From a virus, in the IMG/VR virus record IMGVR_UViG_3300023210_000073, positions 1-41,813 of that record: a stretch of DNA of 41,813 bases; one strand, 5' to 3'. The translations under genes were made by a program, and so were the position numbers. Of the stretch, positions 1-41,813 are shown piece after piece. How positions within the stretch are numbered: position 1 is the first letter of the stretch; every line of letters begins with the position of its first letter. Below the pieces are notes generated by a model, which was not told the origin of the DNA, ran no database searches, and worked only from the letters and a program-made list of their open reading frames with translations.

Positions 1-3000
1 TCTTACCATCTACAACCTTGTTTAACTCTGAGAAGTCCCATTTATAACCTAACTCTGTTAGCTCTTGATATGTACTAGCGTATTGTTCTGCGTTTAAAGT
101 TCCTTTAGTACCATCTGGTCTAGTAAATCTAATCAAAGACTTGCTTGTTGCCAATGTATCATCAAAATCTAGAACAGTAATACCTCTAGATTCGTTATTA
201 GTTGAACGAGAGAACTGAATGGCATTGTTTAATGTTTGGGCGTTTTGAGACTTACTAAAATTAGGACTAAAATCCATGTATTTATACTTATCCATTTCTT
301 TCTTAACATCTTGAATTTTATAAACTTCTTTACCCCCAGTTGTCTTGTAAGATTGCCCGTTTGCATCCCTATGTTTGTTTATTATTTTATCAGCCTTTTT
401 AGTTATCAAATGTACCTCAGTGCTTTCGAGATAATCTCTTAACTCTTTTAGCTTTGCCTCTTTGTTTTTTGGTGTAATCTCATCAATAATTTGATCTATT
501 TTCTTGTGAACATTATTAACAGTTGGTCTGTGATCAAGCTCAACCTTTTTCCCGTAATTAATTATCATTTTTCCAGGAACAGCTATTTTTCTAATACCAC
601 CTTCTGTGTCGAAAGCCATAGACCTTACTTCTGATTTTTTAGATTCTACAGTTGTTTCTCCAGCAATAACATTCATCAAGTGGTCTATAGTAGTACCGCT
701 TTCTTCTTTCATTTGCTTTGCAGCCTCGCCTCTCTGCTCAACTGTTCCATTAGTGAAAACCTGCTTTATTTCTGTTATATTTTTTAAACCCGACACTGGC
801 TTGCCTTCAAAAGTTACCCTTGTATTTCCTTTGTTGTCTATAGTTTTAAACCCAAATCCTTTTACACCGTTTGTTTTGGCTATGTCTGCTATAACCACCT
901 CAGCAAACTGCTGATTTGTCGTGATTGTTTGCCCTTTATATTTAACTTTAGCCGTTTTAAAAGCTTTACCACGATGTTTAAACCACTCTATTATTGCATC
1001 AGCTTTCGTTTGATTTGATCTTAGCGGTTTTAATCTTTTGTTAAGCGATTTAATAGATTCGTTAAAACCTATTTGTGCTACTTCAACCTCAGTTGTCTTT
1101 TTTATTTGCCCTAATATATTTGCTAGGTGATTTTTAGTAAGCACTCCTTCTGATAAAATACCTAAAATAGTATTATCACTATGCATGTGCTCTGTAGACT
1201 TCCAAGTTGTATTAACTATCTCCATAAAAGGAACGCCCTTTTGTATATTTGAGTATAAAATTTCAAAAAAGTCTCTTGCTGTTTTACTGTTCTCTGGTAA
1301 ATTGTCTATTATATCCCTAACTGCAATTTTACTTTTCCTAACTTGATTTCTCTTACCATCCATAAGAGTAGTCCACTTAGTGTTGCCTGCGTGTAAATTA
1401 TAATCAATAGTAGATTTAGAAAACCTAAGGTTTGTTTCTTGTACAACACCGTCTATTGTTACGACTGTACTATTACCGGCTTGTATGCTTTCTAGTGTTT
1501 GTCCAGCAATTTCAAAATTTGAAACTACCTCAACTTTCTGACCTTGTATGCCGTAATACCTTTCGCGTGCAGGTGTTAAATAAGGTAGGTTAGTTTTAGT
1601 AAATCCCTCTGCTGAGCTAGGATCATTAAACTCCTTAAAGTACTTTTGGTTAACAGTACCTTCAATAGTTATAACTTCATTATCCGGAAGCCTAATGTTG
1701 TCTTCAGACTCTAAAAAATATCTTTCATACTTAGTTATATTGTCAAGTCTAATTTCATCTCTACCGAAAGCAGTTTTTACTGTGGCTTTTTTATCAATAT
1801 AAGTTCTTACTTCTTTATAATCTTCCCTAAGTCCATCTCTATAGTTTTCAGTTTGTGTTCGGTAGTATTCGTTTCCACTTTTGTTATCTTTTTCCACCTT
1901 GATAACTTCTCCCTCAAACCCCCCATCTACTTTAGTTTGCTGCAAAATAACTAATCCATCAAGATCTTTATGGATAGTTGTACCGTTTTTCTTATTACCA
2001 GTTACTTTTTCGTAGTACAATAAAGTTTCTTTAGCTTTGTCTACTTCTATAACCTCTTTAAAACCGTTAACTTTTTTACCCCTTACAACAACTCCGCTTG
2101 TAGGTTCGTCATTTCTATCCCACCATCGCATTTCGTTACCATCTCTAAAGGAAACTAACCTACCGTTTTGAAATGCTATTTGATGGCCGTTACCTTCTTT
2201 GTTGTAGTTTTTCCATAGTTTAAACGAACCTTTTAATTCGTTAACTTTTTCTGGTTGTTGCTTTACTATTATTTCATAACCTCCATCAGCTTTGTGAACC
2301 TCAACTACATTTCCTTTAGCTTCCTCTTCTTTAACAATAGAGTCTTTTTCAGCGTTAGTATCTGCCTCTTCAGTGTATAAATACTCTCCTGTTCTAGCGC
2401 ATAAACACCAAGGGTTTGCTTTTTTACCAAAGTGAGTATCAATTACTTTTCTAGTATCAAGTTGTCCCTGCTTAGAGTCTTCAACATCGTAAACCGTAAC
2501 ACCGTTAGTTAACTCTGTTTTATTAGTAAAAGTCTTAACATTATCAGGATTAGTTCTAGTACCTTTAACTTCTCCAACAAATGTTTCTATTAGAACATTA
2601 GGATTTTTAAAAGAGAATGGATCTAACTTCTTCTGAGTAGCTATCTTTTCAGCCTCTATAACTTTATAACCATCTTCAGGTAGTATTAAGAAACCATTAG
2701 CCGTATAGTGCATAGCCATTTTCTCATACTTAGACTTTTTATTGTTTGGTATTTCTTTACCATCTACAAAGTCAAATACAGATTGAACAGCATTTTTTCT
2801 TTGATCTTCAGTAAGATCAGGTCTTCTTTTAGTTAATTGCTTTTCATAAGCTTCTCGGTGCGATTTAGAGAACTTAATTTGAGAATACACGTTAACACTT
2901 CCCGAACCGTCTATAGCCGCTGAGATGTCTCCTATCGCGTTACTCTTAGAGAATTTAACATTAACCTCTCTACCAATTGCAGCTCCTAGTTCAGCAACAC

Positions 3001-6000
3001 TTCCTGGGTCGATGTCCATTTCAGCAATCTTACTTTGAACTTCTTCAGACTGTCTAGCTTCCATAATTGCATCGGTAACTAAACCATTAACCATTCGCAT
3101 TGCAAGACCATCTTTTCTAGTACCTTTTAAACCTTGTCTAGCACCAGTAACTGGATTAATACCTGGTTGATCAGCCCAACTTACCAACTCAGTTTCCGTG
3201 GGCATTATTTTATTATATAGAGAAGGTGAGAAAGCACCTTTACCTGTTTTCTTGTCTTTTGTAATTTTGTTTAAAGCCTCTGGAGGTAATTGCTCTCTGT
3301 TCACGGCATCTTGTACTTGCTCTATAGAAGTTAATGTCTTAACAAAATTTGTAAAGATTCTATCGGCTTCAGGAGTGTTTCTTTCCATTTGAACTAAATC
3401 CGCTGTAGACGTATTTTTAACGATGTCTTCTCTGAACTTCTTAAGATTAGATATATATGTATCTTTTGTTCCTCTTTTTACGTAAGTATCAGCAACGCCA
3501 TAAGTTAAGAAGTTTTTGATTTGCTTAAACAAAGGACTATTAAGATTAGCATATTCTTTCTTTAGTTTAGTTGCAATAGCTTTTGATCTTAACTGAACGT
3601 CTGTAATATTTTGAGTAGTACCATAAGCCATCATTAAACTTTTCTTAACGTTGTCTAGTACTTCATTATATATTTTACTACCAGTTTCAAACCCTAATTT
3701 TCTTCTATATTCAGAATATCTTTGTTTGTCAACTTTTGCTTTTTTGGCTTGACCTTGAATCGATAAATCCTCTTCTTCAAAAGCTTCCATCTCAGCAGAT
3801 TTTTCTGCTGCAACTTGAACTTTTACTTCACCTTCTTTGGTTGTTTTACCGATATCTTTAGCGCCTTTCATTTCATCAGCAACCTTAAACTCTCTATTGT
3901 AAACGTTACCAGCTTTATTAGCTATTTGAGAATTAACCCAACCAAACAAATTATCATTTTGCTCGGGTTTAAAATTCTTAACGTGACTAACTAACTCAGA
4001 GTAAACTAAGTTAACAAAGTTATCAGGAACAATATCAGCTTTATATTTAGATCTTATCAATCCATCAAGCATTTTATTGCTTTGCATTTCTTTAATAGCA
4101 AAGTCAGCGCCTGATTCTTTCCATGTTTCATTAGTCCAACCCATTTCAGCTAATTCGTTTACAGAATTTGTTTGGTCTTTACTTACGGACTCTTTATCTA
4201 CAACGCCTTCTCCTTCAACTAACTTCTTACTAGTCAAACCAACATCTAGTATTTTTGTACCCATAAGTTTACCTAGTAAACCTTTTCTATTTATGTTTTT
4301 ATTATAAGTGCTTAAAAAGCTAATGACATCTTTTGCTGAATCTAATTTTATTTCGCCAAAGCCAAATCCTGCCATAACATCTGTTAATTGGCTTTTTAAT
4401 CCTTTTGAATTAACTTCTTTTATATCAATTTTTTGCTTACTAATTAAATCAGAAAACACGTTTAAATATTCTTCTAAAGCACCATCTTTTATTGTACCAT
4501 CTTTATTAGTATAAAAGTTATCTATTCTTTGCTGAACTCTTACAAAAACATCTGAGTGGTTGTCTTTTAAGTAAGTTTTTAGCTCATCTACCAACGGTGC
4601 CATAGATTTGTTGTCTGTTTTAAACTTTCTAGAAATCATGTAGTGTAAGAGCTCATGACCTAAAACGTTAGTTGCACCAGCTGCGGCAGCTACATTTTTG
4701 TTTATATATATAGTAGCTTTACCGTCTTTACCTTTAGCTATAAATGCTCCGTCTGATTTCTTAATACCACCACCTTCTTTTTCCGCTACAGCATCGACTT
4801 CTTCTTGAGTGTTTAGTATTTTAATAGTAAGATCTTCTCTATTTATGCCTTTGGCTTTTTTAAGTATTGGATCTAGTATTTCAGAAGCTTTTAATGCTTC
4901 ACCTATACTCTGTTCAACATCAACATCTAAATCCACATTACCAATAGAATCAAACATGTTTTGAAACGCTTTTCTAGAAACGTTTTCAGCTTGAGCTTGT
5001 GCTTGCTCTGAGTAGTTTTTGTTATTTACAACACTTAAAGCTTTATTAGCTATATCCATTTGCTCAGCGTATTTTATCTGCTCAGTTCTAGACATGGCGT
5101 CAAACTTACTATATAAATCTGTTTTATTTTTATTAGCTAATTCTATTAGCTTTTTCTCATTGTTTTGAAAAACATCTACTTGGTCTTGATCGTTGTTTTC
5201 TTTTGCTATCTTTAAATCTTTGGCATTATTATCTATTTGCCTAGCAATTTTTTGTTGCTCGATTTGCCATTGTTTTGGAGATATAAGGTGATATAATTTA
5301 TTTTTATTACTTCCTTGCATTGCTCTACCACCACCAGAAACACCACCACCCATAACGGCACCTACAGCAAACGTGTTAATAAAACCTCTTATAAAGTCTT
5401 GATTTGTTTTTATGTCGCCAAATATTAGTTGGTCAGCTTTTTGTTGTAAAAAGTCAGTTGAACCCTCTGTAATACCTTCTGATAAAAAACCTAAACCAGC
5501 TTTCTTTAAAATATTGTTACCAAAACTCATCGATAAATCAGCTACAGTTTTAGATACTTTTTTAGATGGATCTAAGTTGTTTATTACCCTAAAAAGCTTA
5601 CCACCAGCCCACTCAGTTCCCCACTCAGCAGCTCCTTTTGACAGCGAGTTGTACCATATATTCTCTAAAGTTTCATCTGGTCTGTTTTTCAAACTTTCTT
5701 CAAAAGATTCCCCAGCAGTACCAGCTCCTAAAACCATGCTACCCAACACTGGGACAGCTGCTGTTATAGCTAGAGCTGGCGCTGAGCTAAAAGCTTGATA
5801 AGCAAGTAGTTCACCAGCATCACCATATCTACCATCTTCAACTAAGCCGTATAAATCTTCAGTTTCACCAGTTAACTCATCATACTTCTCAACACCCATC
5901 ATATCTAAAACATCTGACATTTGGTTGTAAGTTCTACTAAATTGATTTTGCCCATCAGCAATCATTTCTTCTTTAGTCATACCTATAGCCGACTCATAAC

Positions 6001-6424
6001 CTTTTTCAACAAGACTTCCAACATTAGCTCCCAAACGAGTCATAAAAGAACTAGCCCCAGTAATAGCTGGTACCATAAACTCAGGTATCCCAAAGATATC
6101 AGAGTAAGCAGCTGTCAATCCCTTTTTGATAATCTCATCAGTTTTATTTTGTCGCTTTCTAGCCTCTATCTCTTGTTGCCCCGAAGAACCACGCCCCAAT
6201 CTCGACCCCGTACCTTTTGGCTCTTCGTTTGGAGTCACACCCGCAGAGCCTTTTGTCTTTCCCATTACACTACTTTTCCATGTGGCAAAGTCGTCTTCAA
6301 CGTCTAAACTAGAGTGTAGTTTAGTTAAATAATCATCGTTGTCTTTAACCGCGTTAATCCATGTTGGAAAATCATCTTCAACGTCTAGACTAGAATGTAG
6401 GTTTATTAAATATTCTTCGTTCAT
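1..6424 (-). CDS. Giant polyvalent virion protein (partial, C-terminus beyond window)
   Basis: One open frame runs from an ATG at 6424 off the left edge, giving at least 2,141 residues; it has no stop in the window. Seen: a 27-residue-period repeat at the N-terminus (residues 5-22 and 32-49); two Ala/Gly-rich hydrophobic stretches (about 204-241 and 343-369) that could contact or cross a membrane; a zinc-peptidase motif HELLH at 590-594 (4643-4657); a module with NPWCLCART (about 1336) and WWDRND (about 1433); five FS[KR]S motifs at 1158, 1185, 1668, 2056 and 2071; and DFDDT at 2086-2090 (155-169), which fits motif I of HAD phosphatases. Such multi-domain proteins are known as phage polyvalent proteins, thought to enter the host with the DNA. 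It is the last gene of the virion cluster, 5 bases after the 596-residue gene. Packaging and ejection are inferred; the third zinc ligand and later HAD motifs were not identified. Confidence 0.85.
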   Translation of the reverse strand, partial: MNEEYLINLHSSLDVEDDFPTWINAVKDNDDYLTKLHSSLDVEDDFATWKSSVMGKTKGSAGVTPNEEPKGTGSRLGRGSSGQQEIEARKRQNKTDEIIKKGLTAAYSDIFGIPEFMVPAITGASSFMTRLGANVGSLVEKGYESAIGMTKEEMIADGQNQFSRTYNQMSDVLDMMGVEKYDELTGETEDLYGLVEDGRYGDAGELLAYQAFSSAPALAITAAVPVLGSMVLGAGTAGESFEESLKNRPDETLENIWYNSLSKGAAEWGTEWAGGKLFRVINNLDPSKKVSKTVADLSMSFGNNILKKAGLGFLSEGITEGSTDFLQQKADQLIFGDIKTNQDFIRGFINTFAVGAVMGGGVSGGGRAMQGSNKNKLYHLISPKQWQIEQQKIARQIDNNAKDLKIAKENNDQDQVDVFQNNEKKLIELANKNKTDLYSKFDAMSRTEQIKYAEQMDIANKALSVVNNKNYSEQAQAQAENVSRKAFQNMFDSIGNVDLDVDVEQSIGEALKASEILDPILKKAKGINREDLTIKILNTQEEVDAVAEKEGGGIKKSDGAFIAKGKDGKATIYINKNVAAAAGATNVLGHELLHYMISRKFKTDNKSMAPLVDELKTYLKDNHSDVFVRVQQRIDNFYTNKDGTIKDGALEEYLNVFSDLISKQKIDIKEVNSKGLKSQLTDVMAGFGFGEIKLDSAKDVISFLSTYNKNINRKGLLGKLMGTKILDVGLTSKKLVEGEGVVDKESVSKDQTNSVNELAEMGWTNETWKESGADFAIKEMQSNKMLDGLIRSKYKADIVPDNFVNLVYSELVSHVKNFKPEQNDNLFGWVNSQIANKAGNVYNREFKVADEMKGAKDIGKTTKEGEVKVQVAAEKSAEMEAFEEEDLSIQGQAKKAKVDKQRYSEYRRKLGFETGSKIYNEVLDNVKKSLMMAYGTTQNITDVQLRSKAIATKLKKEYANLNSPLFKQIKNFLTYGVADTYVKRGTKDTYISNLKKFREDIVKNTSTADLVQMERNTPEADRIFTNFVKTLTSIEQVQDAVNREQLPPEALNKITKDKKTGKGAFSPSLYNKIMPTETELVSWADQPGINPVTGARQGLKGTRKDGLAMRMVNGLVTDAIMEARQSEEVQSKIAEMDIDPGSVAELGAAIGREVNVKFSKSNAIGDISAAIDGSGSVNVYSQIKFSKSHREAYEKQLTKRRPDLTEDQRKNAVQSVFDFVDGKEIPNNKKSKYEKMAMHYTANGFLILPEDGYKVIEAEKIATQKKLDPFSFKNPNVLIETFVGEVKGTRTNPDNVKTFTNKTELTNGVTVYDVEDSKQGQLDTRKVIDTHFGKKANPWCLCARTGEYLYTEEADTNAEKDSIVKEEEAKGNVVEVHKADGGYEIIVKQQPEKVNELKGSFKLWKNYNKEGNGHQIAFQNGRLVSFRDGNEMRWWDRNDEPTSGVVVRGKKVNGFKEVIEVDKAKETLLYYEKVTGNKKNGTTIHKDLDGLVILQQTKVDGGFEGEVIKVEKDNKSGNEYYRTQTENYRDGLREDYKEVRTYIDKKATVKTAFGRDEIRLDNITKYERYFLESEDNIRLPDNEVITIEGTVNQKYFKEFNDPSSAEGFTKTNLPYLTPARERYYGIQGQKVEVVSNFEIAGQTLESIQAGNSTVVTIDGVVQETNLRFSKSTIDYNLHAGNTKWTTLMDGKRNQVRKSKIAVRDIIDNLPENSKTARDFFEILYSNIQKGVPFMEIVNTTWKSTEHMHSDNTILGILSEGVLTKNHLANILGQIKKTTEVEVAQIGFNESIKSLNKRLKPLRSNQTKADAIIEWFKHRGKAFKTAKVKYKGQTITTNQQFAEVVIADIAKTNGVKGFGFKTIDNKGNTRVTFEGKPVSGLKNITEIKQVFTNGTVEQRGEAAKQMKEESGTTIDHLMNVIAGETTVESKKSEVRSMAFDTEGGIRKIAVPGKMIINYGKKVELDHRPTVNNVHKKIDQIIDEITPKNKEAKLKELRDYLESTEVHLITKKADKIINKHRDANGQSYKTTGGKEVYKIQDVKKEMDKYKYMDFSPNFSKSQNAQTLNNAIQFSRSTNNESRGITVLDFDDTLATSKSLIRFTRPDGTKGTLNAEQYASTYQELTELGYKWDFSELNKVVDGK
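155..169 (-). other. HAD-type motif I (DFDDT) in the giant protein
   Basis: Residues 2086-2090 read DFDDT in the context ITVLDFDDTLATSKS. A hydrophobic beta strand followed by DxDxT is the nucleophile motif of the HAD phosphatase superfamily. The other HAD motifs would lie beyond the left edge of the window, so activity cannot be judged. Confidence 0.65.
4643..4657 (-). other. HELLH zinc-metallopeptidase motif in the giant protein
   Basis: In the frame of the giant protein these 15 bases encode HELLH (residues 590-594), followed by YMISRKF. The preceding residues GATNVLG and the aromatic/basic continuation fit an active-site helix of an HExxH peptidase. No third ligand could be assigned by eye. 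Confidence 0.7.
6278..6412 (-). repeat. Tandem 27-codon repeat at the N-terminus of the giant protein
   Basis: Two copies, 6359-6412 and 6278-6331, each encode YL-x-x-LHSSLDVEDDF-x-TW, with a period of 81 bases. The DNA of the two copies is close but not identical (for example ctagact versus ctaaact), so the duplication is recent or under selection. Confidence 0.85.
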
Positions 6425-11531: not shown

Positions 11532-14500
11532 TTATACTTGAGACCAAGTTTCAACCCAAGGACCAGCTTGCAGTGTAGTATTCACTGTTTTAACAGCTCT
11601 AACTCTAAATCGCATCCATCTACCAGTAGGGTCTGTTTGAGAAACTAGGGTTGGGTCCTCAATTGAACCCTCTGGGTTAGAACCGGTGTACGGTGGGTGG
11701 GTACTAATATTAGTTGAGTAGGCCCCATACATGGCGTCCGCTGCATTAGGTCCTTGACCGTCACCCTGAGTAAATACCGCTTCAATTTCGAAATTATCAG
11801 GAGTAGCATCTCCAGGGGTGTTAGCTGTATAATCCCATTGCATACTTTGCGTGACATACCAAAGACCATACGCCGCGGTACTAACTGCGGGGCTCACAAC
11901 AGTGTTGTCAATCACACCAACTAATTCACAAAGGGTATTATCAAAGAAAGGAATTTCATCATTATAACCAGCCCACGCGTTAGAATCATTACAACCTAAC
12001 ATAACGTTATATGTTTCCACGTTTGTTGTGTGCGTAGGTATATTGGTGTTTGTAAACCCAATTTTTGCCGCTTGTTGTTGCGCGCCATTACTAGCGGTTG
12101 GCGGGTATAACGCCGCTTTAGTTGCTGATGGTAAAAACTCAACTACTCCGGAGTGGGAACTGAATCGGAATCGTATTAACTGCACGTTATCACCGTTGTT
12201 AAAGCCGTTTCCACTAATCCAACTAGCACCGTCATTAACACTGTACCACCAACTTATTTGACTTGTAAAATTAGTTATATCACCAGCATTACTACCCGCA
12301 GAGTTTTCGTACGCAAATTGAAGGTTGTTTTTATCTATAGCTGGAGACGTACTAACGTCCCAAACGGCAAAAACCACTCTATTAGTCCCACCCCATACGT
12401 TGGTAGTAGACCAACCATCCGTATTTAAAAGTGGAGCTTGCATTCCTAGCGGCACGGCATTATATAATGTTGGCATAATATAAGTACAAGTACCATCATC
12501 CGTATTCGCGGGTGTTGTTGGAGGCGTATAACTATTAATATTTTGAGTATTTGGACCAGCATAATTTGTCGCGGCATAACCACTACCACTATTATTTAGT
12601 GAATCATCCATACAACCAAGTACTTCCGCGACGCATGATCCATTAACGAGAATAAAACCAGTTAAACAAGCACCCGAGCAATCCGCGTTAGCGGCTGGGT
12701 ATAAACAAGAACCATCATCTACTGTAGCGCCCGTGGTTTGGTTACATGCCAATTGATCTGTACAACCAGCACAAGTAGTATAGTTACAAGAACCATTATC
12801 TACAGTGGCACCTGTAGTGGGATTACACGCGTTAGGGTCAGTACAACCATAAACAGGGGCAGATTGTGTTGAAGCCGAAATTTGTGAACTCCAAGGAGAA
12901 GATGTATTCCAACCTAGATTTAACGGTGAGGTACCAGCGGAACAAATAGCTTGTACTTCGATAAGATAAGCAGTTGATGGAGACAAACCGCTTATAGCGT
13001 AACCTACGCTACCAGCTATAACATTGGGTTGTATGTTAGTAATCGTAATCCAAGTAGTTCCTGCGTCAGCGCTATAGTTAATATCATAATGATCAACCGC
13101 TGCTGCATCAGCAACATTCCACGTTTCATCCCAGGATATATCAATTGTATCATAACTAGGACCTCCAAAAATTTGTTGTAAATTACTCACCTGCTTGCAA
13201 TACAAACACCCATTATCACATGAGTATGGATCACCACCTTGGCCTGGTCCATCATAATTATTTGCTGCGCTATCATTACACCAATTACAAGAACCATCAT
13301 TTTGATTAGCTAGCGCGTTATACTCACAGGATGTAGCATCCATACAACCTGGAATAATGTAAAAACAAGGGTTGTTTAAGTCAATAGATGATACTTGTTG
13401 AACGTTTGCATCACAATTTCCATTGCAGTTATAATTATCAGCCAAAGTATCCATGCAACCATAAACAGCTGTTACACAGCAGCAATTACTACCTGCTTGA
13501 CCACCAACACAAACAACTGGGACGGAAAAGTTAGGGAAATTCCCATTAATACCATCACATGCTTGGGTAGCTGAAATATCAAAATTAAGCATATTATAAA
13601 CACCATTAGCATCAGTAGAGCTATCCGTACACCCATATACATCGTAAGTACACGGGAAATTTGCAGAACCAGTCGTTGCGTTAGAATCGTAATTTGTTGC
13701 GTTAGCATCTGTACAACCATAATATACACATGAGCCATCATCCGTGTTAGCCAATGGGTTATAACCATCTCCACTTGTTGGTACCGCCGTCGGGTCCGTA
13801 CACCCTAAAACTGTAGCCGTACAACTACCAGGAATAGCGGCGTTTGAATCGTAATTTGAGTATGTGTTATAAGTAACACCACCATCAACAAATGTAGAAT
13901 CATTCATACATCCAACGGTATTAACTGAAGTTGCATTTTCTGATAACATTCCTATTCCTTGAAAAGAAAAATCAGCATTATTAAAACCACTAGTAATATT
14001 AGCTCCATCTGTTACACTACCAGCCTTACCTCTTATATAGTTGAACCATTTTCCTTCTTTTTCAATAAATTCATTTAATGAACCTTCTTCTTGATCTGTT
14101 TGAATATGCAGAACTTTCCAACCAGGTTTATCAGGTCCTAAATTGTAATATTCATTATTATATATATTAGTGGGATTAGCATTAGTACCAGGAGTGTACG
14201 TGTTATAATCTGTAAAAGTATTTACTTTAGATTGTGTTCCTTCGTAATTTAGAGTATGGAAAGTTTTTATAGTTCCAGGTGATTCGTTTAAAATAACATT
14301 AATACTTGATTCCTTAAAGTTCGTATAAAATGTATTTCGATCTACGGCTTCGTCGTGATGTTTCCATATGTTACCATCTTTAAACGTGTAATATTCGTTG
14401 GCACAACTAATAGCATTTTCAGGTACAAAAGATTTAAAACTAACCCAACCTTTTACATCCTCTTTAAAAGAAACTGTTGTTGGAAATGGTATTTTTGCAT

Positions 14501-17500
14501 CAATAGTATCTCCTTTTAACGTTAAATTGTATTCAGATTTTCTACTATCATAACTACCAACTAGTTTGCTTGACAACTTTAAGTTATCTCTAAACCAGTC
14601 TTTCATTCCGTGAGCAGATATAGGTGTTAACCCATCCATAGACAGCCTCATAACAGTGCCTCTAACTTTATCCGTAAAGTAAGCTCTATAAGCTTCCGAT
14701 GCAAACGATTCTGGATTTTTAGATATACCATACTCACCAGAATAAGGGATAGTTTGACCTAAAACGTTGTTAGTTGAAGTTACATTTGAATTGCCATCAG
14801 CATTGTATAAAGCATCTTTATTGGCTAGTATTTTTAAAACTCTATCTTCGCATAGTGCGACTAAATCACCACCTTGCCCCCAACCAGCGTATAACTTTTG
14901 AATACTACCGTAAGTTGGGTTTATATCTTTAGTTATTTTTTCAGCAGCAATAAATTGATTTAAACTGTTTACTCCACTGTTTGAGTTGTATATGCCGGAG
15001 TATATTAAACCATAATTTCTTATTTCTTGCCCAGGGCTATCTTTTGCCGTGGTAGATAGAGTTACTCCATTACTTAAGTATGGTTTGTTATAAGTATCAC
15101 CTATCCTATTGGATTCAACACCATTATTAAATGACCAGCAATTGTGCCAGCTTAATCCAAATTCATTACTAGGTGTGATTTGTAATTGGCTGGTTGTTCC
15201 ATTTGGTGCTATACCGTAAAAAGTAACATCACCATCATCAGCTATTGTAGCGGTTACATACGTACCATCGTCCCTTAAAAACTCAACACGCCCATTGTTT
15301 AATGCTAGCATAGCGTACTGCACTTGAGTTATTGGTGTTGACAAGTTGACATAAAGATCTGAGGTAGGTGTAATGTCACTCCACCCAGTTATAAATATAC
15401 CGTCTGGAAAATCTCCAACCGTTGGGGGTACTATAGTTGTTCCTATTGGTATGAATAAAAATTTATTTTTATTTGTTAGCGGAAAAACAGGTAGGCTAGA
15501 ACTAGCCTCGTAATACAAGTCTAAACCAACGTCTTCTTTTGGTTCTGTTTCAAATATTGCTGGATTTGAACTGATTTTGTTTTCGCCTTCGTACTCAACC
15601 TCTTCTAAAAATTGAATAGTGTTAAATACAGTGCCAGTTGAAGCAAGGATAGCATCGTTGCCGGCAGCGTCTTCTTCATCTGCTAGAGTAACGGTAGATG
15701 ACACGCCAACTGGAGAAGATAACATGTCTATCTCATATCTAATTCTATACGTAGCTCTTTTGTTTTGCGGTTTTTTAATTTCCTCTATCTGTGCTAGATT
15801 TTCAACATTGCTAAAGTAACCACTATTACTACCTATTTCTTCACCAGCACCATTATAACCAGTTTCTGTAAATGGCACTTCCATTATATTTGTACCACCC
15901 TGCGCGTTTGGGCCCATAAGTATAGATGGCACCCCCATGTAGTTTAGTAATCTAAATTTTTCTACACCTAGTATTTTGTATATAACGTTCCCGTTCTTAA
16001 GTTTAAATCTAGTACCCTCTGTTAACTTGCTAACGATATGCTCTTGATCGTCCGTTGAAGTATTTGTATTAGGATTACCAACATCCCAAGTTGTCCCACC
16101 ATCTTCCAACGGTGCGTTAGGGCTTAATATTGAGTAAGACAAGTCTATATAGTTGCTACCATTTTTAGTGTGAAAACCTTTCATACCCAACCTACCTAAA
16201 CTTATTCCAGTACCAATATTTAAACTATTAGTCGGGGCAGTTCCATCAACGTTAAATGTGGAAAAGTAGCTTTGTAATTGGGCTACGGTATAAATCGTCC
16301 CCTGGTCATTGGTATAAGTAAAATCTGGCAACGTACTAGCTAAATCACAAGAATCATAATCTGTAGTTCCATTGTTAAACTCAGTTTGATAAGTGCCTCC
16401 GCTATTACTAAACCTACCGGCAAAAGGAGCGTTGTCAATAAACCACGCGGCTTTCAACGTAGGCCCACCAAACTTCAAAGCAGCTTCCCATTCCCATGCT
16501 TGATTTAACGAGCCATAGTCACTATCGTCAGGATCGAACGTAACAGCTGGAGTTGTTGGAACTGCAGCAGAGCTCCAATTATAGTCGTTATCACTGTTGC
16601 TTGCAAGGTTATCATCTTCCAGTCTGTATATGTCGAGATCAGTTGTTCTCCACGAATTAAATATAGATTTAGCTCTTGATAGGTGTTTTTCCGTAGCCTG
16701 GTCACTTAGTATTTTAACAAAAAACCTACCGTCAAACTCAGGTTTATTAGTGACAGATTTCTGCCAAAATATAACATGTATCCCGTCAGCCTGCAAAGAG
16801 ACCCCGTTAGTAGAGTGACCAGAGTCTTGAGCAACAAAATCATCATTTACACCTATTGGCGTTTCCAGATGTATAATGTATGGGCTGGTTCCAACAATCC
16901 CCTCATGAACCACGTCAATAACGCGGTATTTATCCCCTGATTGAATATTTGTAACACCACCGCTTTCTGTTTCTTTGGTGAAGCTAACATACATTTCATT
17001 ATTAACAGTCTCTGAATTACTGGTAACCTCGTTAAAAAGAGTAATTAAGCTTGGTAAACCCATATACTTGTTAGTGGTGCTGTATTCACCACCCCACCTA
17101 CCATTACTTATACTAAAGCTTTTTCTACCAACGATAGGTGGGTTTAAACTCTCGTTTGCGTAATTACTGTTTCCCGGGTAAGCAGTACATCCAGCACCCA
17201 AAACCGGGGGTTCACTGTCCATTTGATCAGGGTAGTTTGAGCCTCCCCAAAAATTACAAGAGTGTGTTGAGTGTGTGTCATCTTGATTACTCCTAACAAT
17301 TAAATCATAAGAAGTTTTAATGTACTCTGGAGCCTCATTCTCTATAGCAACAACCTTATACCTAGCCTCTTGATCAACTAGTCCCTCAGAATCTACACCT
17401 TTCTTTAAAATAATATATGTATCTTCGTCTATTTTATTTCTATCAACTGATGGGAAAGAAACCCATATACCACCATCGCTAGCGTCATATACCCTGTCTA

Positions 17501-20231
17501 CAGCTAAATTGTAATATTCGTTAGAAGTTTCTTTTACGTAAAATCTATAGTAATCAGACCATCTAGGCGAAGAGTTTAACGACACATTTAAATGGTTACT
17601 AGTTTTAGATTTGTTTTTTGGAACTAAAATAGACCCTGATTTTGACGCTACAACAGGTGTTTCCCTACCATATTTGTCCCCCCAAACAACCCCTACCTCG
17701 TAGTTTCTCAAAGACTTTATTGATTTCTTAGCGCTGTTATCGCTCGTATCGATTGTGTTACTTCTTACTGATAAGTTAATATCAGGAGTGATATTTTTAC
17801 CATTATCATTTTTTATATCGTAACCTTGAACGTAGTTTCCGTATATAACTCTATTACCACTAACCTCTTGTGCTAAAGCTTTTTTAGGTACATTATCCCA
17901 AGATCTTAGAGACTGGTTGCTAGGCAGTGCTTGTGCTATGTTTTCGTTTGTTATATTATAATAACCACTATTACTATTTGCTAAGTTGTGATTACCTGTG
18001 GAATTCCAACTGTTTTTCCCATTAATAAGCTCGTCTTTATTAGACACCGTGTCCACCAAGTATATTATAGGTGAAGTTTCATTTTTGTAAAGAAGGTCTA
18101 TGCTCGCAACGTCTTTTGGGATATCAGGAGTAATAAAACCCGTAATTGCTAAAGATTCAATAGTATTCGCCATACCCTTGTTGTAGGCTTTTACTGGCTC
18201 GTAATTAAAGTCTCCTGGATAAAAAGCTACGTTTGTAAAAGGGCTAAAAGAAGAATATTCATTGTCTAAATACTTATATCTATAGGCAAATCTAGGCAGT
18301 TTTCTTTCGAATAAAAAACTACCAATAGGTTCTAGCTCCGCGTACCAACTGTTAACATTAACGACATCAGCGTTAGGTGATATAGACAATACTTTAACCG
18401 TATACGTATAGTTGTCTATTTCTATAACCTGAGCTCTCAAGTCAAAACTTGGAAAATAAACAAGTTCCTCGGACAAGCGTATAATATCACCAGGTAAGAA
18501 CCCGTAGGTGTTATTAGATGCAGTTATATTGATAGTCTCACCTACAATAGAGTTAGCAAAGTTTTCAGTAAATACAACGTTAAAACCACCAACAACACTC
18601 TCTCTAGCTGTTGTTTCAAAATTTATGGAAGGAGCTGACAACGGTGCTTTTCTAATAACAGTAATATGTTCTTCTCTAACCGGTACGTTATCCCATATAG
18701 AAATACCTTGAGGCTCGTTTATTAATCTAGTGTGTTCAAAACCTGGTGTTGTACCAGGTATTTTACTACCCTGTATACTTCTTGGTATGTTTATTTTTTT
18801 AGGTTCCGTCTTGCCATCTGTCCAAAACAACATGTCGTCGATGATGTTTATTCCAGTGATGTAATTGTTGTGGTCGAAGTTTAAAGTTCTAGGGCCTCTA
18901 TATAAAAGCGATGTGTATGTTGCGTTTGAAAGGTCTATATTTGTGTCAAGTTGCACTTGAATTTGGCTCTGTATTATAATCGCCCCACCAATAGGTTGCA
19001 GAACGTCATAAATGGAACCACCAACCTGCCAGCCATCATGAATAGCGCCGGTATTACAATCTTTTAGAGTTATGGAATTGTTTATTGTATCCTTACTTTC
19101 AACGCAATAAGCAGTGTTGTCTTTGTAAACCGTATCATCCACAGCTATAGCACTAACATTAAAATAGTTAATGTCAATAGTGAGCTCTCCAGTAGCTATA
19201 TTAAGGTTTAATATGTCTTGGCTTGTAATAATAGCGTCTATAACACTACCATTAGCAGTCGCTGAGTGTGGTACCGATGCACCCGCTCCAGCTGGAGATG
19301 GTTGGTCTATAGGTGGACCCGTGAAGCTTGTTAGATTACTATCTAATGTTACTTTGATAACATTGAGTACATATCCACCTGGAAACGTCATCACAACGGT
19401 TATTGCATTTGATATTGTGAAAGTTTGAGGAGTAGTGTGGTAAGGAAGGATATCTATAGTATCACCAACTAATGTAGATGGGGTCCCATTAAATCCAATC
19501 ATATATACTACGTTGGAGTTGTCTTGGAAGTACGTGGAGCCAGACTTATCAGTATACATCGGTATTAAAATCCCACTAGCCACGGCGTGCGGGCTGTTTC
19601 CAACATAACTATTGATGTTGATTGGTGTTGTTACTACCGTGGATTCAAATTCAACAGGTATGTAGTTGCTCTGAATATCACCTAAACTAACTATTGTAGA
19701 CGTGTTAGATGCATCGCCATTGTCGGCAACACCGGTAACTGTCCAGCCAGGTTGAATTTGATTTATTATACTTAAGTCTATACCGCTTAGGGTATCACTG
19801 TTTATGGACCCAACGTAGGGTTGTGAAAACGCAAACTTATCAACAAAAACAGGTTCACATTTATTAGGTCCTTTTTTTAATATAAGATCTTTCATGGTCA
19901 CAACACCACCATCCCAATCGTTGTTACCCACCATATTATCTGCTGAGTAACTCTCTCCAGATATCAACCAATATAAAGAGTCGTCTTTTTCATCGGAAAT
20001 AGACCCAACAGTAAAAGAACCACTAGGTATTGGATTACTACTTGGATTTAAAACGTAGTCCGTACAACCCAACGTATTACCAAGTATATTCTGAACAGTC
20101 CCAACACTCGACCCCTCTGAAGTTGACACCTGTATGTTCATTGCATCTCTATATTCACCTTTGGGAATAAGTCTTTCATCAAGATCTTTATTCATTTTGC
20201 CACCGGTAAACTGATTTTTAATCTCTGGCAT
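11532..20231 (-). CDS. Giant stabilisation-type tail protein fused to Cys-rich/FnIII adhesin
   Basis: A 2,899-residue protein. The N-terminus (KNQFTGGKMNKDLDER..GEYRDAMN..GTVQNILGN) matches the start I associate with stabilisation proteins of crAss-like and related marine phages. The long core runs to about residue 2070 and contains RAYFTDKVRGTVMRLSMDGL and GMKDWFRDN (about 1845-1875). From about 2103 to 2340, and again 2460-2590, there are roughly ten GC[TMN][DN]...DGSC-type units (12480-13930), the calcium-binding thrombospondin-3-like style common in marine Bacteroidota surface proteins. A fibronectin type III-like domain (about 2347-2459) separates the two blocks, and the C-terminus (RFRVRAVK..GPWVETW) looks like a second one. 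The core probably caps the connector while the C-terminus binds surfaces; this is inference. It starts 3 bases after the ring-protein stop. Confidence 0.85.
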   Translation of the reverse strand: MPEIKNQFTGGKMNKDLDERLIPKGEYRDAMNIQVSTSEGSSVGTVQNILGNTLGCTDYVLNPSSNPIPSGSFTVGSISDEKDDSLYWLISGESYSADNMVGNNDWDGGVVTMKDLILKKGPNKCEPVFVDKFAFSQPYVGSINSDTLSGIDLSIINQIQPGWTVTGVADNGDASNTSTIVSLGDIQSNYIPVEFESTVVTTPININSYVGNSPHAVASGILIPMYTDKSGSTYFQDNSNVVYMIGFNGTPSTLVGDTIDILPYHTTPQTFTISNAITVVMTFPGGYVLNVIKVTLDSNLTSFTGPPIDQPSPAGAGASVPHSATANGSVIDAIITSQDILNLNIATGELTIDINYFNVSAIAVDDTVYKDNTAYCVESKDTINNSITLKDCNTGAIHDGWQVGGSIYDVLQPIGGAIIIQSQIQVQLDTNIDLSNATYTSLLYRGPRTLNFDHNNYITGINIIDDMLFWTDGKTEPKKINIPRSIQGSKIPGTTPGFEHTRLINEPQGISIWDNVPVREEHITVIRKAPLSAPSINFETTARESVVGGFNVVFTENFANSIVGETINITASNNTYGFLPGDIIRLSEELVYFPSFDLRAQVIEIDNYTYTVKVLSISPNADVVNVNSWYAELEPIGSFLFERKLPRFAYRYKYLDNEYSSFSPFTNVAFYPGDFNYEPVKAYNKGMANTIESLAITGFITPDIPKDVASIDLLYKNETSPIIYLVDTVSNKDELINGKNSWNSTGNHNLANSNSGYYNITNENIAQALPSNQSLRSWDNVPKKALAQEVSGNRVIYGNYVQGYDIKNDNGKNITPDINLSVRSNTIDTSDNSAKKSIKSLRNYEVGVVWGDKYGRETPVVASKSGSILVPKNKSKTSNHLNVSLNSSPRWSDYYRFYVKETSNEYYNLAVDRVYDASDGGIWVSFPSVDRNKIDEDTYIILKKGVDSEGLVDQEARYKVVAIENEAPEYIKTSYDLIVRSNQDDTHSTHSCNFWGGSNYPDQMDSEPPVLGAGCTAYPGNSNYANESLNPPIVGRKSFSISNGRWGGEYSTTNKYMGLPSLITLFNEVTSNSETVNNEMYVSFTKETESGGVTNIQSGDKYRVIDVVHEGIVGTSPYIIHLETPIGVNDDFVAQDSGHSTNGVSLQADGIHVIFWQKSVTNKPEFDGRFFVKILSDQATEKHLSRAKSIFNSWRTTDLDIYRLEDDNLASNSDNDYNWSSAAVPTTPAVTFDPDDSDYGSLNQAWEWEAALKFGGPTLKAAWFIDNAPFAGRFSNSGGTYQTEFNNGTTDYDSCDLASTLPDFTYTNDQGTIYTVAQLQSYFSTFNVDGTAPTNSLNIGTGISLGRLGMKGFHTKNGSNYIDLSYSILSPNAPLEDGGTTWDVGNPNTNTSTDDQEHIVSKLTEGTRFKLKNGNVIYKILGVEKFRLLNYMGVPSILMGPNAQGGTNIMEVPFTETGYNGAGEEIGSNSGYFSNVENLAQIEEIKKPQNKRATYRIRYEIDMLSSPVGVSSTVTLADEEDAAGNDAILASTGTVFNTIQFLEEVEYEGENKISSNPAIFETEPKEDVGLDLYYEASSSLPVFPLTNKNKFLFIPIGTTIVPPTVGDFPDGIFITGWSDITPTSDLYVNLSTPITQVQYAMLALNNGRVEFLRDDGTYVTATIADDGDVTFYGIAPNGTTSQLQITPSNEFGLSWHNCWSFNNGVESNRIGDTYNKPYLSNGVTLSTTAKDSPGQEIRNYGLIYSGIYNSNSGVNSLNQFIAAEKITKDINPTYGSIQKLYAGWGQGGDLVALCEDRVLKILANKDALYNADGNSNVTSTNNVLGQTIPYSGEYGISKNPESFASEAYRAYFTDKVRGTVMRLSMDGLTPISAHGMKDWFRDNLKLSSKLVGSYDSRKSEYNLTLKGDTIDAKIPFPTTVSFKEDVKGWVSFKSFVPENAISCANEYYTFKDGNIWKHHDEAVDRNTFYTNFKESSINVILNESPGTIKTFHTLNYEGTQSKVNTFTDYNTYTPGTNANPTNIYNNEYYNLGPDKPGWKVLHIQTDQEEGSLNEFIEKEGKWFNYIRGKAGSVTDGANITSGFNNADFSFQGIGMLSENATSVNTVGCMNDSTFVDGGVTYNTYSNYDSNAAIPGSCTATVLGCTDPTAVPTSGDGYNPLANTDDGSCVYYGCTDANATNYDSNATTGSANFPCTYDVYGCTDSSTDANGVYNMLNFDISATQACDGINGNFPNFSVPVVCVGGQAGSNCCCVTAVYGCMDTLADNYNCNGNCDANVQQVSSIDLNNPCFYIIPGCMDATSCEYNALANQNDGSCNWCNDSAANNYDGPGQGGDPYSCDNGCLYCKQVSNLQQIFGGPSYDTIDISWDETWNVADAAAVDHYDINYSADAGTTWITITNIQPNVIAGSVGYAISGLSPSTAYLIEVQAICSAGTSPLNLGWNTSSPWSSQISASTQSAPVYGCTDPNACNPTTGATVDNGSCNYTTCAGCTDQLACNQTTGATVDDGSCLYPAANADCSGACLTGFILVNGSCVAEVLGCMDDSLNNSGSGYAATNYAGPNTQNINSYTPPTTPANTDDGTCTYIMPTLYNAVPLGMQAPLLNTDGWSTTNVWGGTNRVVFAVWDVSTSPAIDKNNLQFAYENSAGSNAGDITNFTSQISWWYSVNDGASWISGNGFNNGDNVQLIRFRFSSHSGVVEFLPSATKAALYPPTASNGAQQQAAKIGFTNTNIPTHTTNVETYNVMLGCNDSNAWAGYNDEIPFFDNTLCELVGVIDNTVVSPAVSTAAYGLWYVTQSMQWDYTANTPGDATPDNFEIEAVFTQGDGQGPNAADAMYGAYSTNISTHPPYTGSNPEGSIEDPTLVSQTDPTGRWMRFRVRAVKTVNTTLQAGPWVETWSQV
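12480..13930 (-). repeat. Cys-rich GC[TMN][DN]..DGSC repeat region
   Basis: About ten degenerate units in the frame of the 2,899-residue protein, each starting GCTD, GCMD, GCMN or GCND and often closing DDGSC-x-Y or DNGSC-x-Y. An FnIII-like segment (about 12855-13190) interrupts the array. Asp/Asn-rich loops with paired Cys suggest disulphide-stabilised calcium-binding turns. Confidence 0.8.
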
Positions 20232-31543: not shown

Positions 31544-31822
31544 TTATTTTGATCTACCCTCTGCGAATCCCTTAAAAGTCTTTTCCTCTACCTTTTCAGT
31601 TACTTTACCTTCAAGCAGGTTCTCTTCTTCTTCTATTCTATTAAGTATCTCAAATGCATCAAATATAGCTAGTTTCTTTGAAGCCGCAGCATTCTTTAAC
31701 TTGTCAGCTGTTAGATCGTCTTCAGAATCAGTGACAATAGCTTCTTTTGCTACTTTAATTAACTCTTCAACTGCCTTGTGCCCAGCTTGGATTATACTTT
31801 TCTTCGTTTCCTTGATGTTCAT
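31544..31822 (-). CDS. Small helical protein, candidate small terminase subunit
   Basis: The frame opens at 31909, but I chose the ATG at 31822 (MNIKETKKSII); the longer start would overlap the upstream gene by 143 bases instead of 56. The 92-residue product is almost all alpha-helical and charged (HKAVEELIKVAKEAIVTDSEDD, KLKNAAASKKLAIFDAFEILNRIEEEENLLEGKV). Small, helical, slightly acidic proteins two genes upstream of terL are often DNA-recognising small terminase subunits, but no helix-turn-helix is obvious. Function is inferred from context only. Confidence 0.55.
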   Translation of the reverse strand: MNIKETKKSIIQAGHKAVEELIKVAKEAIVTDSEDDLTADKLKNAAASKKLAIFDAFEILNRIEEEENLLEGKVTEKVEEKTFKGFAEGRSK

Positions 31823-32357
31823 ATTTGATTGTAATAAAATTAGATTTAACTCGATATAGTCTTTCGCCATCAACGATAAACTCGTATTCACTACTTGGTC
31901 TAAAACCAACTAGATCGTTTACTTCTACTGTACCATCGGAGAATTTAACGATGCCTTGTAAAGGTTTTTCAGATTCCGTGTTAAATTGATCCACTGCTTT
32001 CAAGGGCATTACGAAACAATATCCCTTAGGGCAAATCCATTCCCCATCTCTTTTGTACAAAAAAATCTGATCAGGTGCTATAAAATATGTTTTCTCATCG
32101 AAATAACTTCTGCTATTTTTTTCCACACCCTTAATATCATTCCACCTTCTAAAAACGTTGTGATGTATTAAAACAGTATCTCCAGTGTCTATGTCAGTGT
32201 GACCAATAAGTGGTTTTGCTGTTACTATAGCTTCTCTGTTGACAAACTGATGATTAAAAATATTAGTGTTTAGAATAAGCTCCCCACCGTCTAACTGCTT
32301 AGCGTTGTTGTATCTTTCTCCTTTTGGCGTTACAACAAAGTCGTGAACGCTTTTCAT
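31767..32357 (-). CDS. Putative tandem GroES-like double-barrel protein
   Basis: 196 residues. The second half (about 112-180) reads FVMPLK..LQGIVKFSDG..VNDLVGFRPSSEYEFIVDGERLYRVKSNFITI, matching the cpn10 order of strands: a barrier-like start, G-I-V, a v..GD/ND-V-F turn, then an E-x-x-v/i-D-G-E-x-Y segment and a final hydrophobic strand. The first half (about 5-103) has the same layout: FVVTPK..GGELILN..REAIVTAKP..DTGDTVLIHHNVFRRW..YFIAPDQIFLYK. I therefore read it as two GroES-like barrels in one chain. It starts at the stop of the upstream gene (TAATG overlap). It could be an accessory co-chaperonin or a structural protein with that fold; no mobile loop (IVL) is clear in either half. Confidence 0.6.
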   Translation of the reverse strand: MKSVHDFVVTPKGERYNNAKQLDGGELILNTNIFNHQFVNREAIVTAKPLIGHTDIDTGDTVLIHHNVFRRWNDIKGVEKNSRSYFDEKTYFIAPDQIFLYKRDGEWICPKGYCFVMPLKAVDQFNTESEKPLQGIVKFSDGTVEVNDLVGFRPSSEYEFIVDGERLYRVKSNFITIKYEHQGNEEKYNPSWAQGS

Positions 32358-40216: not shown

Positions 40217-40474
40217 TTAATCTACTAGAACTACGTCACCATCACGAATGACCCGGTAAAGTACATCTTTCCATGATATGTCGTGTCCAGCATGTTTATC
40301 GTAATATATCGTATCACCATCTTTCAGCCCTTCGACTAAATGTCCACACGATATTATTTTTGCTTTTATATAACGGTTGTCTTGATCAGTCTCGTCTGTC
40401 ATGATCAACCCAGCAACCTTTTTAGGCTCTGTCTTTATTCTGTCTACTATAATATATCTATTGATTGCTTTCAT
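40217..40474 (-). CDS. groES: Phage co-chaperonin GroES
   Basis: 85 residues, slightly shorter than bacterial GroES (about 95). Seen: an N-terminal strand MKAINRYIIVDRIK, a short loop KKVAGLIMTD corresponding to the mobile loop (GLIM in place of the usual GIVL), YIKAKIISCG, LKDGDTIYYDKHAGHDISWKDVLYRVI (the GD-x-[IV]-x-[YF]...G..[IV]...-Y sequence of cpn10) and final VVLVD. GroES caps GroEL chambers. It overlaps the groEL gene by 17 bases and is transcribed after it, the reverse of the usual bacterial order. Confidence 0.9.
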   Translation of the reverse strand: MKAINRYIIVDRIKTEPKKVAGLIMTDETDQDNRYIKAKIISCGHLVEGLKDGDTIYYDKHAGHDISWKDVLYRVIRDGDVVLVD

Positions 40475-41813
40475 TCATTCTCATATTTGAAATTACACAA
40501 TCTGCAGATATAATTGTTGATACTACACTTACTGCATTCTTAAGAGCTGACTTGGTTACAAGTACAGGATCTATGATACCAGCTGAGATCATCGTGGCTC
40601 TTTCACCAGTTACAACATCAATTCCGTAACCTTCGTGATCTTCGTATCCATCTAGCATAGTTATACCAGCATTGTCAAGTACAGTGTAGAAAGGAGCTTG
40701 AATAGCTTTTAGTAGTATCTTTTCACCTACCGCTTTAGCGGGGATTTTTTGAGAGGCATTAAGTAATGCTACACCTCCGCCGGGCACGATACCTTCTTTT
40801 AGTGCTGCTTTTGTAGCATAGATAGCATCTTCTATTCTATCTTTCTTTTCTTTAAGCTCAACTTTAGAATCAGCACCTACTTTTACCATACCTACTGATC
40901 CTGACAGCATAGCTAGTCTTTGCCTGTGTTTCTTTTGTATAAACGGGTTTTTCTCCCATTTATCTATAGTCTTATTAATACTAGCAATTCTCTCCTCCAT
41001 TTCCTCTTCTGGAGTATCTATCGTGAGAACTGTATTTTTATCATCAGTAATTGCAGTATAAGCTTCTCCTAAGCAATCTATATCTATAAGATCTAAATCA
41101 TCACCTAGTTGTTCGTTGATTACTTTAGCGCCAACAAGGAATGCAAGATCAGCTACGGTATCGTCTTTAGTAGGACCAAAGCCTGGTAAATCAACGATGT
41201 TTACTTTAATGTTACCTTTTACCTTGTTCATAAGTAAAGCAGCTTTAACTTGTTGTTCTACCGGAGCAACGATCAATAAAGATCTCTTGTGCTTTATAAC
41301 ATGTTCTAATACTGTTTGTATTTTTCTGATGTTAGGTATTTCTGAAGATACTATTAATACTAATGGGTTATCAAGCTCACATATCTGCTTGTCCTTATCA
41401 GTAACGAAATGTGGAGATGTGAGTCCTGAATCTACCTGCACGCCGTCAACTACTTCGACGTATGTCTCTTCAGTTGGAGACTCTTCCATTAATACCACAC
41501 CATCTTTACCTACTTTAGTATAAGCTTCCGCTATAATCTTTCCTAGTTCTGTATCATTATTACAACTTATTGAACTAACAGATTCGAGCATATCGCCTTC
41601 GATCTTGACAGAAATCTTATCTAGGTAATCATTTACCTTCTTAAGACCGGATTTAATCCCATCTTTCACTTCTCTTATAGTTACACTTTTCTCGCAACTA
41701 TTAACTTCTTTTAACAATGATTCAGCAAGGACGGTAGCTGTAGTAGTACCGTCACCTGCTTCTCTCACTGTATTTCTAGCAGCCTCCTTAATTAAGGTAG
41801 CCCCCATGTTTTC
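40458..41813 (-). CDS. groEL: Phage chaperonin GroEL (N-terminus beyond window)
   Basis: At least 451 residues; the open frame continues beyond the right edge because the first in-window codons (E-N before the first ATG) correspond to the ENMGA segment near residue 67 of E. coli GroEL. Seen: EAGDGTTTATVLA (nucleotide binding and the Asp in the DGTTT loop), apical-domain SPHFVTDKDK and LPGFG, KVELKEKKDRIEDA, GIVPGGGVALL, and SAGIIDPVLVTKSALKNA with the second catalytic Asp. The region around ASQKIPAKAVGEKI..LDGYEDHEGYGID is shorter than in host GroEL, and the C-terminus (MRMNESNQ) has no GGM tail. It folds virion proteins in the host cytoplasm. Confidence 0.95.
   Translation of the reverse strand, partial: ENMGATLIKEAARNTVREAGDGTTTATVLAESLLKEVNSCEKSVTIREVKDGIKSGLKKVNDYLDKISVKIEGDMLESVSSISCNNDTELGKIIAEAYTKVGKDGVVLMEESPTEETYVEVVDGVQVDSGLTSPHFVTDKDKQICELDNPLVLIVSSEIPNIRKIQTVLEHVIKHKRSLLIVAPVEQQVKAALLMNKVKGNIKVNIVDLPGFGPTKDDTVADLAFLVGAKVINEQLGDDLDLIDIDCLGEAYTAITDDKNTVLTIDTPEEEMEERIASINKTIDKWEKNPFIQKKHRQRLAMLSGSVGMVKVGADSKVELKEKKDRIEDAIYATKAALKEGIVPGGGVALLNASQKIPAKAVGEKILLKAIQAPFYTVLDNAGITMLDGYEDHEGYGIDVVTGERATMISAGIIDPVLVTKSALKNAVSVVSTIISADCVISNMRMNESNQ

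Follow-up and report, generated by a model that had tools for sequence, protein, structure and literature searches.

The window analysed here, a stretch of 41,813 nt covering positions 1 to 41,813 of the virus record IMGVR_UViG_3300023210_000073, begins with a giant open reading frame on the minus strand (2-6424; 2141 aa). No stop codon is met before the contig end, so the encoded protein is incomplete. It contains five nearly identical tetrapeptides, FSKS at residues 1158, 1185, 1668 and 2056 and FSRS at residue 2071, and the same chain carries an HELLH motif at residue 590. All these positions agree with the original prediction, which took the tetrapeptides for domain-boundary marks and possible sites of self-processing. 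The question raised by this locus is whether a phage protein of this size can be a chain of modules that is cut apart at a common motif and, if so, which protease cuts it.

As had been supposed, the recurrence of the motif is hardly accidental: 0.04 FS[KR]S occurrences are expected from composition, giving a probability of five or more of about 1e-9, a figure to be taken as a guide since the motif was picked after inspection. More than three copies were never found in 20,000 shuffles of the giant protein. A less biased check, covering all tetrapeptides of the relatives, has placed FSKS among the most recurrent ones in distinct contexts. FS[KR][STN] is absent from the other ORFs of the window (11,609 aa examined). 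The spacing of 15 residues between the last two copies before the HAD-like part was also given correctly. On the other hand, the Ser/Thr/Asn/Gln-rich stretch said to follow every copy is found after the last two and loosely after two others, but not after the 1185 copy (HREAYEKQLTKRRPDL). A probable weaker site upstream, VSKD at residues 747-750, had been overlooked; relatives read KFSK there. FSRT at residue 162 was considered as one more site and rejected: it is common only to L001 and, since this sole sharer is identical to the window protein there, probably reflects chance.

The chain (all coordinates below are on the minus strand) starts with a tandem repeat of about 25 aa, read directly from the sequence (LHSSLDVEDDF.TW twice; residues 3-49, 6278..6418), which may serve in packaging or docking. 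MW202828 has a syntenic giant whose N-terminus is doubled in a similar way, with a different segment. A zincin-type metallopeptidase domain (approximately residues 500-720, 4265..4927) is indicated by alignment, an AlphaFold model and structural matches. It includes HELLH (residues 590-594, 4643..4657), recognised in the sequence and the alignment, and Glu652 (4469..4471), the candidate third zinc ligand. The probable site Z (VSKD, 4175..4186) aligns with KFSK of L003 and L006 and KFSM of L002. It forms the left border of a module common to the window protein and L003: the two proteins are about 95% identical over residues 750-1300 or so, including the whole segment that runs from site Z up to the first FSKS (residues 751-1157, 2954..4174), and unrelated in the upstream, peptidase-containing part.

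The first FSKS (residues 1158-1161, 2942..2953) is followed at a distance of 27 residues by the second one (residues 1185-1188, 2861..2872), and the aligned relatives have FS[KR] at both positions with a spacing of 26-27 residues. Cassette 1 (residues 1189-1667, 1424..2860) is kept in about ten relatives; the mean pLDDT of its fold model is 70. Within it the stretch HFGKK.NPWCLCAR is nearly invariant, and one half is predicted by AlphaFold to be rich in beta structure. The third FSKS (residues 1668-1671, 1412..1423) precedes sequence that is non-homologous in most relatives. Cassette 2 (approximately residues 1672-2055, 260..1411) is an exchanged module with 12-28% identity to L001 and up to 75% to L064. 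It ends at the fourth FSKS (residues 2056-2059, 248..259), where the motif is aligned in the window protein, L002, L003 and L007. FSRS (residues 2071-2074, 203..214) stands directly ahead of the HAD-like module, the start of which (GITVLDFDDTLATSK; 2..184) is cut by the contig end; in the nearest proteins this site precedes the HAD-like sequence GITVLDFDDTL. Modelling of residues 1140-1699 placed all three motifs covered (1158, 1185 and 1668) in low-confidence coil, the one at 1185 lying between helices. Comparison of the giant with Pfam and PHROGs gave nothing usable, and curated Pfam models, including those of polyvalent domains, had no match in three giants, although remote kinship could escape such models.

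Relatives were collected by IMG/VR scans with the protein, the C-terminal module and the peptidase regions as queries. The resulting set includes 123 non-redundant giants and four more, 127 environmental proteins in total, taken from the matches listed (more than 450 candidates exist). The position of the motif is conserved in 10/10 relatives at 1158, 10/10 at 1185 and 8/8 at 1668, and in 7/7 and 5/5 at two later sites, so the lack of positional conservation that would speak against a processing role was not found. The 7/7 refers to the site preceding the HAD-like module, and the 5/5 to a further site located after this module, beyond the window contig; all these figures are for the ten nearest proteins. 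Full-length relatives, which are about 2,100-3,800 aa long, have this post-HAD site (site C), and across 119 giants it shows F in 84% and S in 96%, in a stretch that varies strongly past the motif. The expectation that the motif would be kept while its neighbours vary is thus borne out by conserved motif columns between variable flanks. Against a processing role, canonical motifs are scarce or absent in many relatives, and A1 and A2 often read FSL, FSI or something else alongside FSK at site C.

Two giants were compared with cultured phages by tblastn and matched none; for the full-length protein the comparison covered 50,697 cultured-phage records. Syntenic giants do occur in cultured relatives (Elemovirus, phi38:1, phi13:2, Gundel_1 and MW202828), but they have no such motif set, which speaks against the processing role and rules them out as motif carriers. 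The HAD-like and C-terminal modules are very common in uncultured virus contigs (e.g., L005, 6345-15327; more than 450 IMG/VR stretches).

The motifs coincide with the joints of a mosaic. Different segments of this very large chain resemble different relatives, as expected for several unrelated exchangeable domains. The DNA of the window protein and its nearest relative, L001, is identical for 3506 nt, up to residue 1168, and divergence starts eight residues past the first FSKS. Cassette 2 is then unrelated in L001 and related in L064, and the HAD-like module is near-identical again. Overall, 74 homology breakpoints fall no more than 5 aa away from a strict motif, compared with 11.3 expected and a permutation maximum of 25. 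No excess was seen with the controls, a pair of scrambled motifs and a variant with FN, and the FT and LS near-variants gave a weak one. Both this enrichment and the module borders in relatives support the reading of the motifs as domain-boundary marks.

Such a strong tie to recombination borders could also be expected if the motif were a short DNA repeat promoting module recombination, with the peptide being incidental. We consider this very improbable. The motif serine is encoded by TCN in some copies and by AGY in others, and in the window protein the codons of the five copies match one another no better than under random choice of synonyms (75 matches vs 80). Since the codons differ among copies, selection acts on the peptide; the comparison largely refutes a hidden DNA repeat, which would in addition leave the concerted amino acid shifts described below unexplained.

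One chain tends to reuse one motif at several non-homologous sites. FSE is found after the peptidase, at the TTAQ site (site A3) and after the HAD-like module in L071, L179, L180 and L081; it occurs four times in L071 and three times in L081, L031 and L091, the latter two carrying HDxxH in place of HExxH. SAG is present three times in both L086 and L076, at the same three places, with flanks about 60% identical to those of L071. Further within-chain repeats are FKR (KFKR; four in L149), SQS (three in L121), FSN (three in L089) and FASK (KFASK; two in L157), but these four cases were found with knowledge of site C and serve as illustrations, not as tests. For the ESK class (L061, L099 and L101) the evidence comes from the A and C sites (MESK, GAESK/GVESK), L101 reading MEAK at A; ESK ahead of the HAD-like module of these proteins weighs little because KESKG is also present there in FSK-type proteins.

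Sites A3 and C carry the same residue in 15 of 18 proteins, against a shuffled mean of 6.5, and pooled A1/A3 sites agree with site C in 31 of 40 cases (shuffled mean 14.8, maximum 25). Label permutations leave shared ancestry in, while a test on tree-controlled independent pairs removes it at the price of modest power; all six pairs went in the same direction (p = 0.03). In a blind test, the tripeptides of each protein's own post-HAD site were counted in its upstream 1500 residues for all 116 proteins; as the core was taken one residue early (KFSK), the permutation over all proteins is used and a split into canonical and non-canonical motifs is not. This has produced 256 own matches against 176 ± 11, with a maximum of 217 in 5000 permutations (P = 0.0002); without near-duplicates the figures were 235 and 175 ± 10. 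The sites inside one protein therefore change in concert.

This behaviour also bears on the suggestion that the copies are due to chance or to inherited duplication of one functionless linker. Some resemblance between linkers does exist (LNNAIQFSRS is similar to LNNIKFSRK), so some sites may descend by duplication. As a full explanation, however, chance or duplication is refuted by the conservation of the sites over deep divergence, the breakpoint enrichment and the lineage-specific concerted replacement, and we give it hardly any credence.

Concerted change points to a single agent recognising all sites of a chain, and the peptidase domain is the obvious candidate. In an alignment of 59 sequences just four positions of this region are invariant: H, E and H in the HExxH motif, and a Glu located 62 residues past the first His, which corresponds to Glu652 of the window protein. 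Judged from the alignment, this is the pattern of an active metallopeptidase with Glu as the third ligand. The catalytic motif is present in all 121 giants with a complete 5' end (HExxH in 116, HDxxH in five). The AlphaFold model of the domain has a pLDDT of 84.5. Metallopeptidases or related folds make up most of its best structural matches, which include a polyvalent-type ArdC, but with Z of 3.2-6.1 these do not reach the trusted level. Foldseek with the same model found no significant fold match, and a PDB sequence search by the zincin profile found no convincing one. The HDxxH (HHDxxH) zincins belong to L031, L061, L091, L099 and L101, and linker motifs are changed in all five.

Is the in-chain zincin the cutter, or could another phage or host protease process the chain, the zincin being an effector directed against host proteins? 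An effector role has been proposed for such domains (PMC5512222), and any single cutter would give concerted change. Besides, the motif class at site C follows the C-terminal module better (r = 0.22) than it follows the zincin: a partial Mantel test of the site-C motif against zincin sequence, given the HAD-like and C-terminal modules, was not significant (r = 0.06, P = 0.10), so we do not claim zincin sequence as a global predictor of the motif. On the other side, a catalytic zincin motif is retained in every complete giant, and [FY]S[KR] is missing from site C in each of the five HDxxH proteins (Fisher P = 0.006), which represent only about three independent lineages. In seven chimaeras (L071, L076, L086, L091, L019, L047 and L152) the motif follows the zincin neighbour and not the neighbour by C-terminal module, against three with the opposite behaviour (L062, L049 and L147), according to our own reading of these proteins. 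Finally, no prohead protease gene was recognised among the ORFs searched in the window, which is a partial genome. Altogether, processing by a separate protease seems unlikely to us, and the in-chain zincin is the likely protease as far as sequence comparison can tell. Because the global correlation of zincin and motif is weak, we put the zincin forward by inference; of the original idea of self-processing by the HExxH domain, the concerted sites and the invariant HExxH and Glu are consistent with it, and the partial correlation is not significant.

We thus consider it reasonably probable that the giant is a polyvalent protein with modules joined by cut-site linkers and released by a single protease, most likely the metallopeptidase of the same chain. 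The protein, probably virion-borne, would be a string of exchangeable modules connected by short unstructured linkers, each holding one linear recognition motif, in this case hydrophobic-x-F-S-K/R-S. These motifs would be protease cut sites, all recognised by one protease, presumably the domain near the N-terminus. Metallopeptidases of this sort often accept a bulky hydrophobic residue at P1', so the likely scissile bond would be the one just before Phe. The expected products are the peptidase part, the central module, one or two variable cassettes, the HAD-like domain and the C-terminal module as separate proteins. We infer that recognition means cleavage, which may occur during assembly, in the virion or after injection.

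As to the phage itself, the window terminase is nearest to those of MW202828 and flavobacterial podovirus-like phages (Elemovirus, Cellulophaga phi38:1 and phi13:2, Tenacibaculum Gundel_1), and a fragment of the C-terminal module is present in a Bacteroidetes MAG. A GroES-like protein (31767-32357, minus strand) is also encoded in the window, as is GroEL (40458-41807, minus strand), the 5' end of which coincides with the contig end; GroEL and GroES are present in MW202828 and Elemovirus too. A 2899-aa protein (11532-20231, minus strand) has an fn3 domain and a match to the crassvirus muzzle C-terminal domain that barely exceeds the Pfam cut-off, which connects this group of phages with crassvirus-type tails. 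The syntenic gene of Elemovirus and phi38:1 codes for a giant recorded as 'structural protein', which suggests that the window giant may be carried in the virion.

A virion location would also be compatible with the motifs being linear tags read without cleavage, e.g., by a portal, tail or ejection factor threading or storing the chain, or acting as unfolding start points. One recogniser of this kind would likewise yield concerted change, and ejection in a partly unfolded state has been suggested for the cargo proteins of a crassvirus (PMC10172136). Yet such a tag is lacking elsewhere among the ORFs of the window, and cutting is a simpler account of a tag at every inter-module linker of a chain with an embedded peptidase. 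We therefore regard tags of this kind as rather improbable, even more so than cutting by a separate protease.

In prohead processing of the T4/phiKZ type the cut motifs are Glu-based (cf. PMC10052503) and the protease is encoded by a separate gene. The likeness to our case consists in large virion proteins being matured by proteolysis at a short motif; here the motif is Phe-Ser-Lys/Arg, not Glu-based, and is confined to one chain. A closer parallel is provided by the polyvalent proteins of phages and conjugative elements, giant multidomain chains with an embedded zincin-like metallopeptidase domain, for which an autoproteolytic release of the remaining domains was proposed (Iyer et al., 2017; PMC5512222). 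The giants described here differ from them by a named motif at module borders and co-evolving copies of it; the main text of PMC5512222 does not mention a linker, a processing site or FSK, and no later report of such a cut-site motif was found in open-licence literature. Autoproteolysis of polyvalent proteins has thus already been proposed from domain composition, and the new part is the cut-site motif together with its concerted evolution.

One such polyvalent protein, DdrB of phage P1, was reported to be processed before packaging. The virion RNA polymerase of N4 enters the virion in unprocessed form (PMC5512222). This polymerase, a Schitoviridae protein of about 3500 residues (PMC12633501), is a giant with a HExxH domain like ours, so its packaging in an intact form counts against the self-processing proposed here. 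The analogy between polyvalent proteins and polyproteins of eukaryotic RNA viruses was also drawn in PMC5512222. It extends to one embedded peptidase with several similar sites, and sites and specificity would be expected to shift together; the differences lie in the peptidase type, the DNA phage context, the free exchange of cassettes at the sites and the putative character of cleavage here.

We would put at somewhat below an even chance the broader proposal that these giants, encoded by a large uncultured family of Bacteroidota-phage relatives, are true self-cutting polyproteins, in which peptidase specificity and all sites were switched together in some 8-9 lineages and the sites serve as joints for cassette exchange. 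Whether phages make real polyproteins could be settled with a few recombinant proteins, as the finding offers a concrete candidate cut-site motif with natural variants (FSK, FSE, SAG, FKR and ESK) that allow the peptidase for each linker to be predicted. It further locates the borders of modules exactly, so that domains of unknown role can be cloned and folded singly.
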